DNA of 64,000 bases, taken from positions 47,321 to 111,320 of the forward strand of contig LNEK01000019.1 of assembly GCA_001464425.1 (NCBI GenBank), in the 5' to 3' direction. Under the pieces are notes generated by a model, which worked only from the letters and a program-made list of their open reading frames with translations, was not told the DNA's origin and ran no database searches. The translations under genes and the position numbers were made by a program. Below are positions 56,757 through 62,640 of the stretch, piece by piece (position 1 is the first letter of the stretch; each line of letters begins with the position of its first letter). This DNA comes from Alphaproteobacteria bacterium Ga0077535 (GTDB lineage: Bacteria > Pseudomonadota > Alphaproteobacteria > Caulobacterales > Aquidulcibacteraceae).

Positions 56757-58484
56757 ATGAGCGATGACTCGCTTTCGAAGAACGCCAAGGTGGGCATCGC
56801 CGCCATGGGCGGGATTACACTCGTGGCGGTTGCAGCTTTGGCCGTAGGCACCGTGTTGCCGCCGCTCAGCAATCAAAGCAGCGGCACGATCGCACCGGCG
56901 GAGCGCTACCGTTCGGCGCAAGTCTCCGACGCAGATGTCACCCTTGGCGACGACGCCGTGCCGCTTCTTATGCAGACGGACGCGTTCGAGCTGATGATCA
57001 ACGATCCGTCGTTCCGGGCCCTTGCATCGGATGCTGGCTTCGCAGCTCTCGCGCAGAACCCGCAAGCGCTTCTCGCCATGGCGCAGGACGCGCAGGCGTT
57101 CTCAGCTCTCGCGCGTGACCCGCAAGCCTTCGCGGCGCTCGCTCGCGCCGCAAACGCCGGCGCGGCCCAATCGATGGATGCGCAAGCCGCCAATGCGGAA
57201 GCGTTCGCCGCAATGGCCCGTCACGCTAACGCCTTCGAAGCGATGGCCCGCCAGCCTCAAGCCTTCGCCGCGATGGCCCGCCACCCTCAAGCCTTCGCAG
57301 CTTTGGCCCGTCACCCGCAGGCGTTCGCCGCAATGGCGCGCAACCCACAGGCCTTCGCCGCCTTCGCGCGCAACGGCAATTTCGCCGCCGCCGCACGCAA
57401 CCCGCAAGCAACCACGGCAATGGCGCGGGACGCGCAAGCCTTCCAAGCCTTGGCCGGTGACGCACAAGCGATGAGCGCACTCGCTGCCGACGCGCAGGCG
57501 TTCCAGGCATTGGCTGCCGATGCACAGGCCTTCCAAGCGCTCGCGCGTGACGCACAAGCGTTTAACGCACTCGCTTCAAACGCTGCTGCTTTCGATGCGA
57601 TGGCGCGCAACGCCGAAGCATTCCAGGCACTAGCACGCGACGCACAGGGCCTCAGCGCCATGGCGCGCAGCGCGCAAGCGTTCGACGCCCAAGCCCGGTT
57701 GGCCCAAGCGCTCGACGCTCAAGCGGTCGCCGCTTTCGGCGCCAACGCGCAAGCCTTCTCGGCAATGGCGCGTGAGCCGCAAGCGTTCGCGGCAATGGCT
57801 CGCCACCCGCAGGCGTTCGAGGCACTGGCGCGTCACCCACAAGCGTTTGCGGCAATGGCGCGCAACCCGCAGGCGTTCGCCGCTTTCGCCCGTGACGCCA
57901 ACTTCGCTGCGGCGGCCCGCAACCCGCAGGCGAATGTGGCGATGGCGCGTGACGCACAGGCGTTCCAAGCGCTCGGCCGCGATGCGCAAGCGATGCGCGT
58001 GCTCGCTGCCGACGCGCAGGCGTTCCAGGCGCTGGCTTCCAACGCCCAAGCCTTCCAAGCACTCGCCCGGGATGCGCAGGCGTTTAACGCGCTCGCATCG
58101 AATGCACAGGCGTTCCAGGCGCTCGCTCGCAACGCCCAGGCCTTCCAGGCTCTGTCGCGCGACGCCCAGGGCCTAGCCGCCATGGCTCGTAACGCGCAGG
58201 CGTTCCAGGCGCAGGCTGCGGCGGCGCGCTCGGCGCAAGGCATCAACGCGCAGGCGTTCCAGCTGATGGCGCGTCACCCGCAGGCCTTCGCCGCCATGGC
58301 GCAGAACCCGCAAGCGTTCGAAGCCCTGGCCCGCAACCCGCAAGCGATGCAGGCGCTCGCCTCCAACGCTCAAGCGTTCACGGCGCTGGCCCGCAACCCG
58401 GCGTTCGCAGCGCTGGCGCGTGAGCCCGCGTTTGCCGCCATGGCGCGAGACGCGAGCTTCGCAAGCGCGCTACGGGCGAATTGA
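56757..58484 (+). CDS. Membrane-anchored Ala-rich decapeptide-repeat protein
   Basis: One TM (VGIAAMGGITLVAVAALAVGTVLPPL) then about 48 units of [P/A]QAFxALAR[N/D/H]; SD GGAGGAGA upstream. Confidence 0.85.
   Translation: MSDDSLSKNAKVGIAAMGGITLVAVAALAVGTVLPPLSNQSSGTIAPAERYRSAQVSDADVTLGDDAVPLLMQTDAFELMINDPSFRALASDAGFAALAQNPQALLAMAQDAQAFSALARDPQAFAALARAANAGAAQSMDAQAANAEAFAAMARHANAFEAMARQPQAFAAMARHPQAFAALARHPQAFAAMARNPQAFAAFARNGNFAAAARNPQATTAMARDAQAFQALAGDAQAMSALAADAQAFQALAADAQAFQALARDAQAFNALASNAAAFDAMARNAEAFQALARDAQGLSAMARSAQAFDAQARLAQALDAQAVAAFGANAQAFSAMAREPQAFAAMARHPQAFEALARHPQAFAAMARNPQAFAAFARDANFAAAARNPQANVAMARDAQAFQALGRDAQAMRVLAADAQAFQALASNAQAFQALARDAQAFNALASNAQAFQALARNAQAFQALSRDAQGLAAMARNAQAFQAQAAAARSAQGINAQAFQLMARHPQAFAAMAQNPQAFEALARNPQAMQALASNAQAFTALARNPAFAALAREPAFAAMARDASFASALRAN
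57006..58481 (+). repeat. About 48 approximately 30-bp coding repeats with 522/501-bp higher-order copies (57243-57764, 57765-58265)
   Basis: Unit list read from the translation; MARQPQAFAAMARHPQAF... and MAREPQAFAAMARHPQAF... start 522 bp apart. Confidence 0.9.
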
Positions 58485-58490
58485 TACGGC

Positions 58491-58519
58491 GCGGCGCATC
58501 GCTTTAAGCGATGCGCCGC
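58491..58519. promoter_or_regulatory. Perfect 14-bp-arm palindrome (hairpin) between the repeat-protein gene and the gluzincin gene
   Basis: GCGGCGCATCGCTT-T-AAGCGATGCGCCGC. Confidence 0.75.
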
Positions 58520-61500: not shown

Positions 61501-61597
61501 CCGATTGCCGATGGTGCTGTCAGTCGGCTACGCTGAGGGCTTCGAAGACGGCGAGCGCCGCGGCAACGAGGTGCTGGTCTCGCTAAAGATCATGTGA
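58553..61597 (+). CDS. Secreted HExxH gluzincin (peptidase MA-like) with TolB/PD40-like propeller and C-terminal barrel-like region
   Basis: Signal MDIRGGLFLASLLFAPIASAQ; NHEVTHVALMDVW...RWYLEGSAVFMETWMAGG zinc motif; WYTTDNYAYRDIMRLDVATG-type propeller blades; alternating beta C-terminal third ending LVSLKIM. Confidence 0.75.
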   Translation: MDIRGGLFLASLLFAPIASAQTPVDDAPQIAVDPPAADVTAPEPPPQQEPPSRAPEDIPVIDLSQIETENLRLLFFAPQESYLTPYVGRSFENALAYQQRMFDWEPWEPVTVLLKDFSDYGNAAARSSPNNALLIDIAPLSLAYETFSPGERFFTLTNHEVTHVALMDVWNERDAFWRRFFAGKPMPVQEHPESILYNYLTTPRVNVPRWYLEGSAVFMETWMAGGFGRAQGAYDEMVFRSMVRDDAHFYSPVGLESEGIFVDFQVGVNDYLYGTRFFSYLALNHSPEQVVQWLRRDEDSAAYYGTQFRRVFGLPLHQAWQNWIEWEFEFQRENLASVHAYPTTNANALSPRALGSVSRTFVNPETGGLIGAFRYPGVIGHIGELTPGSGDIRHLTDIKGAMLYRVTSLAYDPSTNTAWYTTDNYAYRDIMRLDVATGREEMVLRDARIGDIVFNPSDRSLWGLRHLNGYVTLVRMPEPHTSWNQVHTFPFGRVPFDLDISADGSMLAASVGEVNGDQSVQIFRMADLTAGVTEPFARFSLGTSTPEGFVFSPDGRYLYGSAYYTGVSNIFRYEIATQELEAVSNAETGFFRPIPQSDGSLIVYEYTGEGFRPAVIQPEPLESLGNIRFLGADIAERHPVVTTWTAGPPSAVDFDAMVTAQGHYLPRDEMTLGAAYPVIEGYRGRAALGYHVVFEDPLQFNQLHATLSYTLDSPYEDQDWHLDVEYRTLKWRFRYWHNDADFYDLFGPTERARAGDALIVGYRHSFIYDPPRQLDLDVEAAYYTGLDTLPGAQNVQSQFDTLASFNAELHYTNTTRSLGAVDHERGWRWNLGVGADHANGEVFPSVRGGVDFGVPLPMNNSSIWLYTAAGAAGGDELSPLSSFYLGAFGNNYVDDREVKRYREFDSFPGFEINQIDAQSFVRSVAEINLPPVRFEDIGSPGFFLSSVRTAVFAGALEAEPSIGERQSYQTVGIQTDWNFTVAHRLPMVLSVGYAEGFEDGERRGNEVLVSLKIM

Positions 61598-62640
61598 TGC
61601 TCGCTGACCTCGTGCTGAAAGCGCTGATCGCTGTGGCGCCGGTGCTAATACTGCTCCTGGTGTTCGATCGCCTGGACGTCTTCAATCTCATTCCGATGCG
61701 AGAAATCGGTCTGCTGACAGGTGTCGGCGCCGGGCTCGCTGTGCTTACATTCGTTCTGAACTGGCGAGTGATGGACGGCTTCCCGATCGGCTGGAGCGCC
61801 TTCACCCGCTACGTCGCGCCGCCAATCGAAGAGGCGATGAAAGCCGCGCCGATCATTTATCTGTTCTCGCGCAATCGCCTGGGCTTCAAGCTCGACGCCG
61901 CCATCGCCGGCTTTGCCGTGGGCGCGGGATTCTCTGTGGCGGAGAACGCCTGGTATCTCGTGACTCTCACCGGCACGAACGTCACCGATTGGCTGGTGCG
62001 CGGCTTCGGCACGGCGGTGATGCATGGCGCGGCGACCGCGCTGTTCGCGATCATCGCGCACGAAATGTCGGAAAAGCAATCCGAGAGCGCCGCGGCGCAT
62101 TATAGCTTCAAGCCGCTGCTGTTTTTGCCGGGCTTCGCGGTGGCGACCGTGGTCCATTCAGCCTTCAACCACTTCCCGCAGCAACCGCTGATCGCCATGG
62201 TGCTCACGCTGCTGCTCGCGCCTCTTACGTTGTTCTTGACGCTCGCACGAAGCGAGCGCGCGACGCGCCACTGGCTCGCGGCGGACGCGGCGGCGCACCG
62301 CCAGCTGCTCGACGACATTCGCGCGGGGCGTTTCGCCGAGAGTAAAGCCGGCGCCGCGCTGCACGAGGCCGGCGCAATCGGCAGCGTACCCGCGGCAGAG
62401 GTTATGTCCTACGCGGAGTTGAAAATGGAAATGGTGCTGCGTGCGGAGGAGCTCATCCTCGCCAGTCATGAGGGTGAAGGCGCTACTGCGGGCGAACCTG
62501 AGCGCCAAAAGCTTCGTCACCTCGATACGCTGGAGCAGCGCTTAGGCAAAACCGTCGCCGCCGCCATAGACTCGCGCCTCGGCTTCACACGCAACGATTT
62601 GTACGAACTGAGCCGTCTGCGCGCACGCTTATCGGATTAA
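61597..62640 (+). CDS. PrsW family intramembrane metalloprotease-like protein
   Basis: PPIEEAMKAAPIIYLF (EExxK), GAGFSVAENAWYL (FxxxE), GTAVMHGAATALFAIIAHE; ATG overlaps preceding TGA (GTGATG). Confidence 0.8.
   Translation: MLADLVLKALIAVAPVLILLLVFDRLDVFNLIPMREIGLLTGVGAGLAVLTFVLNWRVMDGFPIGWSAFTRYVAPPIEEAMKAAPIIYLFSRNRLGFKLDAAIAGFAVGAGFSVAENAWYLVTLTGTNVTDWLVRGFGTAVMHGAATALFAIIAHEMSEKQSESAAAHYSFKPLLFLPGFAVATVVHSAFNHFPQQPLIAMVLTLLLAPLTLFLTLARSERATRHWLAADAAAHRQLLDDIRAGRFAESKAGAALHEAGAIGSVPAAEVMSYAELKMEMVLRAEELILASHEGEGATAGEPERQKLRHLDTLEQRLGKTVAAAIDSRLGFTRNDLYELSRLRARLSD

Follow-up and report, generated by a model that had tools for sequence, protein, structure and literature searches.

A conserved three-gene operon pairing a tandem-repeat membrane protein with a predicted PrsW-family protease and a predicted exported gluzincin in Proteobacteria

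The 64,000-nucleotide stretch analyzed here (the window; contig LNEK01000019.1, positions 47,321 to 111,320) from Alphaproteobacteria bacterium Ga0077535 carries three neighboring genes, all on the forward strand. Gene 1 (56757-58484, 575 aa) encodes a transmembrane (TM)-anchored tandem-repeat protein. Gene 2 (58553-61597, 1014 aa, GTG start) is predicted to encode an exported gluzincin with a TolB-like propeller and an Omp85-like barrel, and gene 3 (61594/61597-62640, 347-348 aa) a PrsW-family intramembrane protease. A previous reading made from the letters alone (the sequence-only reading) had described three co-oriented genes separated by 69 bp and then by a GTGATG overlap. The list of open reading frames (ORFs) bears out the shared orientation and places GTGATG, where the stop of gene 2 overlaps the start of gene 3, at 61594-61599 (+), but the spacing of genes 1 and 2 measures 68 bp. 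The -4 spacing of genes 2 and 3 recurs throughout the genus. In congener pairs, the ratio of nonsynonymous to synonymous substitution rates (dN/dS) is about 0.03-0.28 for the three genes, which indicates purifying selection on each. A scan for sigma-70 promoters gave matches no more frequent than chance.

These ORFs form a module that is conserved far beyond the window genome. We surveyed a family sample (60 genomes), an order sample (398 genomes), and 58 loci from a scan of named genomes covering Hyphomonadaceae, Caulobacteraceae, Sphingomonas/Croceicoccus, Lysobacterales, Wenzhouxiangella, and Betaproteobacteria. In the family sample, genes 2 and 3 occur in the same 15 genomes and are adjacent wherever the contig is intact; gene 1 lies upstream in these carriers, and the flanking genes differ among most of them. 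Gene 2 was detected in 22 genomes of the order sample and the N-terminal domain of gene 1 in 20, all inside those 22, and both genomes with gene 2 only end at contig edges. Among the named loci with enough sequence, the gene upstream of gene 2 encodes a repeat protein that shares the TM/juxtamembrane segment in 43 of 43, and a PrsW homolog lies downstream in 49 of 50. Gene-neighborhood conservation, which the sequence-only reading had proposed as a check, therefore shows the genes to be strictly co-conserved.

Co-occurrence within the genus may, taken by itself, reflect clade inheritance. A 550-aa membrane protein encoded at 54390-56042 (-) has a similar distribution, as it is present in 15 of 30 genomes of the genus (14 shared with the operon) and is mostly unlinked elsewhere; this overlap is probably due to a shared clade. 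Our argument therefore rests on synteny across classes. In the gene 2 tree, most loci of Gammaproteobacteria and Betaproteobacteria stand apart from those of Alphaproteobacteria. Distant relatives of about 950 aa that combine peptidase, propeller, and barrel occur in another proteobacterial family (L134-L144, e.g., G436:C29 and G410:C16), and the three loci examined had no PrsW or gene 1 neighbor. A plasmid search with gene 2 returned no match.

Gene 1 has a single hydrophobic segment (residues 12-30; 56790-56846, +). Lysine and arginine counts flanking this segment, which average 1.32 before it vs 0.53 after it across the family, point to a likely N-in/C-out anchor. A juxtamembrane segment follows at residues 43-90 (56883-57026, +), with the pattern GTIAPAERYR..Q...D..LGD..VP.LMQTDAFEL, in which the G, T, R, L, G, Q, T, and D columns are invariant (alignment A7, 35 sequences). 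From this pattern of conservation, the segment is a candidate protease-recognition region. The remainder is an Ala-rich array of about 48 ten-residue units, typically RHPQAFAAMA, closed by a conserved C-terminal cap, FAALAREPAFAAMARDxxFAxAxRAN (58389-58481, +; alignments A3 and A6). Autocorrelation gives a period of 10 residues, with a lag-10 self-identity of 0.52 against a maximum of 0.25 in 200 shuffles. Within the array (57027-58388) lie two long homologous blocks, at about residues 157-330 and 335-490; this layout is found genus-wide.

The AlphaFold2 model of gene 1 is of low confidence (predicted local distance difference test [pLDDT] 62, predicted template modeling score [pTM] 0.35) and places 8-residue helices separated by short turns in the array. 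A Foldseek search with this model found no match under an E value of 0.001; the best, BurrH at 9.6e-3, was not used. We also rejected homology to YlbE (PF14003), as the cut-off is passed only by adding many repeats and no single stretch passes. Since dN/dS among congeners is low (0.03-0.17), gene 1 is a real, constrained protein. About 11 residues precede its TM segment and they hold no anti-sigma domain; judged from its sequence, gene 1 of the window is not an anti-sigma factor.

Gene 2 begins with a Sec-type signal sequence, judged by eye (MDIRGGLFLASLLFAPIASA/Q; 58553-58615, +). Its AlphaFold2 model, built with 40 homologs (mean pLDDT 86, pTM 0.83), shows a helical peptidase domain (residues about 60-340; 58730-59572, +), a propeller (residues about 345-620; 59585-60412, +), and a C-terminal beta-barrel of about 16 strands (residues 660-1014; 60530-61594, +). 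The zinc/catalytic motif HEVTH (59027-59041, +) and EGSAVFME, which holds the third-ligand glutamate E213 (59189-59212, +), lie on helices 152-167 and 209-223, respectively. All 40 homologs share H159, E160, H163, and E213. With HExxH and a downstream Glu, both on modeled helices, gene 2 satisfies the gluzincin definition at the level of sequence; Peptidase_MA_2 gave a weak, sub-cut-off match in 1 of the 40. Both a profile search (E about 6e-5) and Foldseek (E about 1e-7) match the propeller to TolB. The barrel likely belongs to Omp85, an assignment weakly backed by profiles (Omp85_2 matches weakly in 9 of 40 homologs, best E 8.6e-5), and BamA is among its Foldseek matches. Taking compartments from the Omp85-like topology, gene 2 probably forms a barrel in the outer membrane and has its propeller and zinc peptidase in the periplasm.

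Gene 3 matches the Pfam PrsW-protease family PF13367 with E=1.2e-16 and 61.3 bits (cut-off 23.5); the homolog at locus L195 scores 75.6 bits. Its EExxK (E78, E79, K82), FxxxE (F112-E116), H143, and HxxxN (H187-N191) motifs are kept in 35 of 35 sequences. Sequence comparisons place gene 3 in the PrsW family but outside the curated PrsW equivalog. A C-terminal extension of about 130 aa (residues 217-347; 62245-62637) is conserved and has no Pfam match. The sequence-only reading had named a membrane-tethered repeat protein, an exported HExxH/E protease with the HEVTH and EGSAVFME motifs, propeller-like blades, a barrel-like C-terminus, and a PrsW-like protease. Of the outcomes that it gave as refuting its idea, neither a lack of co-conservation nor the absence of a zinc-peptidase fold in gene 2 is borne out. 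Each of these has a counterpart in the data: one hydrophobic segment plus a period-10 array, an invariant HExxH...E site inside a confidently modeled gluzincin-type helical domain, the TolB matches, the modeled strands with Omp85_2 matches, and the PF13367 match.

Between lineages, the repeats of gene 1 are replaced while its anchor is kept. Nearly all loci retain the TM segment together with GT[IV]xPAxRYxxxQ...D..LGD (alignment A7). The repeat units are 10-mers (PQAFxALAxx) in some lineages and 9-mers (NADFARALG, ADGRFAELM), 7-mers (RDASQAA), or 4-mers (SNAA, GQAA, GQST) in others. Arrays consist chiefly of small or polar residues, and Cys and Trp are absent from the 17 members sampled. Their length is mostly 380-640 aa, with extremes of about 217 aa (L108) and 644 aa. 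The array thus looks like a spacer or ectodomain that can be exchanged, and the conserved, recognizable part is the anchor segment.

Upstream of the operon, the Gammaproteobacterial and Betaproteobacterial loci carry sigma-factor and partner-switch genes. In all six of those with enough upstream sequence in the first scan, the operon is preceded by genes for a GAF-SpoIIE phosphatase, an RsbW-like HATPase, a STAS protein, an extracytoplasmic function (ECF) sigma factor, and an anti-sigma factor. A single ORF behind the ECF gene encodes an anti-sigma domain, the TM segment, the GTIxPAxRY segment, and the repeat in eight Betaproteobacteria-type loci (L117:6053-7843, L124:6650-7834, L172, L194, L195, L196, L198, and L199). 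Of these, L172, L194, L195, L196, L198, and L199 come from the family of L124, in which gene 2 is present in 21 of 65 genomes, so the eight cases are related and are not eight independent events. The one-ORF arrangement implies that the Betaproteobacterial anti-sigma factor, encoded next to PrsW, has the repeat protein as its ectodomain. The one-ORF proteins have an in-frame Met just before the TM segment, in several cases after a purine-rich (Shine-Dalgarno-like) stretch, and a second, anti-sigma-less TM-repeat product is therefore possible. Some Sphingomonas-type loci have, just upstream, a gene for a CHAT-domain (caspase-like) protein of about 1027 aa (L120:2505-5588, with counterparts in L121, L127, and L131; Pfam E=5.5e-46).

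We consider it somewhat more probable than the reverse that the operon is an envelope regulated-proteolysis module, a variant of regulated intramembrane proteolysis in which the TM-repeat protein is the substrate and in which we infer cleavage. Because the PrsW homolog adjoins a TM protein that is an anti-sigma factor in one lineage, gene 1 as the PrsW substrate is the simplest reading. The sequence-only reading had offered the same idea, and it gains support from the Betaproteobacterial anti-sigma fusion, which sits between the ECF gene and the protease/PrsW genes, and from the precedent of RsiW. In such a pathway, gene 1 would be an inner-membrane protein (N-in) whose long, low-complexity repeat array forms a periplasmic ectodomain. 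The peptidase and/or propeller of gene 2 would sense or trim this ectodomain, and PrsW would next cut gene 1 close to the conserved juxtamembrane GTIxPAxRY segment. In lineages with an anti-sigma domain on gene 1 or next to it, the cut would release the ECF sigma factor, for which the SpoIIE/RsbW/STAS partner switch may serve as a second input. Since gene 1 in Alphaproteobacteria has a short stub and no adjacent sigma gene, the core would have to serve another purpose there or pass its signal to a partner encoded elsewhere. More broadly, and tentatively, with our confidence just short of even, we suggest a widespread form of envelope signaling. PrsW and an outer-membrane gluzincin would jointly process a TM protein with an interchangeable repeat "fuse"; the Betaproteobacterial form would be an ECF anti-sigma factor with partner-switch input, and the bare Alphaproteobacterial core would have a non-sigma output.

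Several observations weigh against gene 1 being the substrate of a PrsW pathway of this kind. Its status as substrate, the compartments, the localization, and the order of the cuts are inferred. PrsW is described with a conserved His in the fifth TM helix and HxxxD in the sixth (PMC4602095); in gene 3, H143 and H187 are invariant, but the motif reads HxxxN (N191 in 35 of 35), and the protein scores 19.4 bits against the NCBIfam PrsW equivalog NF033739, for which the cut-off is 225. One locus, L114 (L069/L114, Marinicaulis sp.), has genes 1 and 2 with no PrsW within 1.5 kb downstream. No Alphaproteobacterial locus has adjacent SpoIIE, HATPase, STAS, ECF, or anti-sigma genes or an anti-sigma domain on gene 1. 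The anti-sigma assignments are based on position and on N-terminal NCBIfam matches under the curated cut-offs. Finally, Gammaproteobacteria keep the anti-sigma factor as a separate TM protein beside the ECF gene (L108, L115, L116, and L119), and PrsW may therefore act on that factor instead.

This last point leads to an alternative that we consider quite unlikely, in which PrsW targets some membrane protein other than gene 1, such as the separate anti-sigma factor of Gammaproteobacteria, and the role of gene 1 is to regulate the proteases or to act as their decoy. An anti-sigma-less product started at the internal Met of the Betaproteobacterial fused ORF would suit such a role, as would the separate genes at the four Gammaproteobacterial loci. 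However, Alphaproteobacteria retain gene 1 without an anti-sigma gene beside it, and in Betaproteobacteria gene 1 is itself the anti-sigma ectodomain. Unlikely, though less so, is a trans-envelope tether, in which the repeat protein spans the distance from the inner membrane to the barrel/propeller of gene 2 as a structural rod or spacer and the proteases merely remodel it or turn it over. The propeller resembles TolB, a Tol-Pal component; the array is long, charge-poor, lacking in Cys and Trp in the sampled members, and open to sequence replacement, which a spacer would tolerate; its C-terminal cap is conserved; and the Alphaproteobacterial form has no anti-sigma partner. A tether nevertheless leaves the anti-sigma fusion and the linkage to ECF and partner-switch genes unexplained, and an array as variable in length as this one makes a poor ruler.

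Release of peptides or toxins, with the repeat protein as a precursor from which the two proteases cut secreted peptides, strikes us as very improbable. A tandem precursor with two proteases fits this scheme, and PrsW domains have been proposed to free toxin domains (PMC3482391). Here, however, PrsW and the repeat protein are encoded separately, neither a variable C-terminal toxin domain nor an immunity gene is present, the cap is conserved, and the repeat unit is entirely different between lineages. We give almost no weight to the possibility that the genes are neighbors by chance, with gene 1 either a spurious ORF or an unrelated gene with repeats. High-GC genomes do hold Ala-rich, low-complexity ORFs with long antisense frames, and antisense frames are open at gene 1 too, but the unbroken upstream synteny, the conserved N-terminal domain, the low dN/dS of gene 1, and co-conservation across three proteobacterial classes refute an artifact.

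PrsW signaling as known is centered on RsiW in Gram-positive bacteria. The operon packages a PrsW homolog with its likely substrate and with a protease that is likely its partner in the outer membrane, and the natural series of bare core, separate anti-sigma factor, and fused anti-sigma factor makes substrate choice directly testable. If our preferred reading of regulated proteolysis is true, an outer-membrane metalloprotease would feed regulated proteolysis at the inner membrane, and the sequence of the repeat ectodomain would have been replaced repeatedly while the anchor and proteases stayed fixed. Beyond the operon, the gene at 62732-63466 (-) encodes an IspA/IspZ-like septation protein with an 80% ortholog in only 1 of 29 congeners (31-41% in the others); it is an extra copy, possibly acquired.

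We found no description of the operon in the open-license PubMed Central (PMC) literature, and it is apparently undescribed so far. The closest discussion of PrsW gene neighborhoods that we found concerns toxin release (PMC3482391). As in those PrsW-dependent polymorphic toxin systems, a PrsW peptidase is linked to a repeat-containing protein; unlike them, the PrsW of the operon is unfused and comes without a toxin domain or an immunity gene. Gene 2 shares its domain order and HExxH...E site with proteins that join a peptidase MA/gluzincin domain to a PD40/TolB propeller and an Omp85-type barrel, but it stands strictly in an operon with gene 1 and PrsW, an arrangement absent around the distant relatives examined. 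In Bacillus subtilis, PrsW carries out site-1 cleavage of the anti-sigma factor RsiW, its best-established substrate (PMC10202637, PMC4602095). The operon resembles the PrsW-RsiW-sigmaW system in its PrsW-family protease and, in the Betaproteobacterial and Gammaproteobacterial versions, in a membrane anti-sigma factor and an ECF sigma factor (PMC10202637; PMC4602095). It differs in that PrsW is clustered with a membrane-protein gene and an outer-membrane-type gluzincin, in the tandem-repeat ectodomain, in an Alphaproteobacterial core without an adjacent sigma or anti-sigma gene, in HxxxN rather than HxxxD, and in the C-terminal extension of gene 3. The upstream genes of the Gammaproteobacterial and Betaproteobacterial loci recall the RsbU-RsbV-RsbW partner switch, with a GAF-SpoIIE phosphatase, a STAS protein, and an HATPase_c_2 kinase. 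Unlike that switch, this set is absent beside the Alphaproteobacterial operon and, where present, is coupled to an ECF sigma/anti-sigma pair and to membrane proteases.

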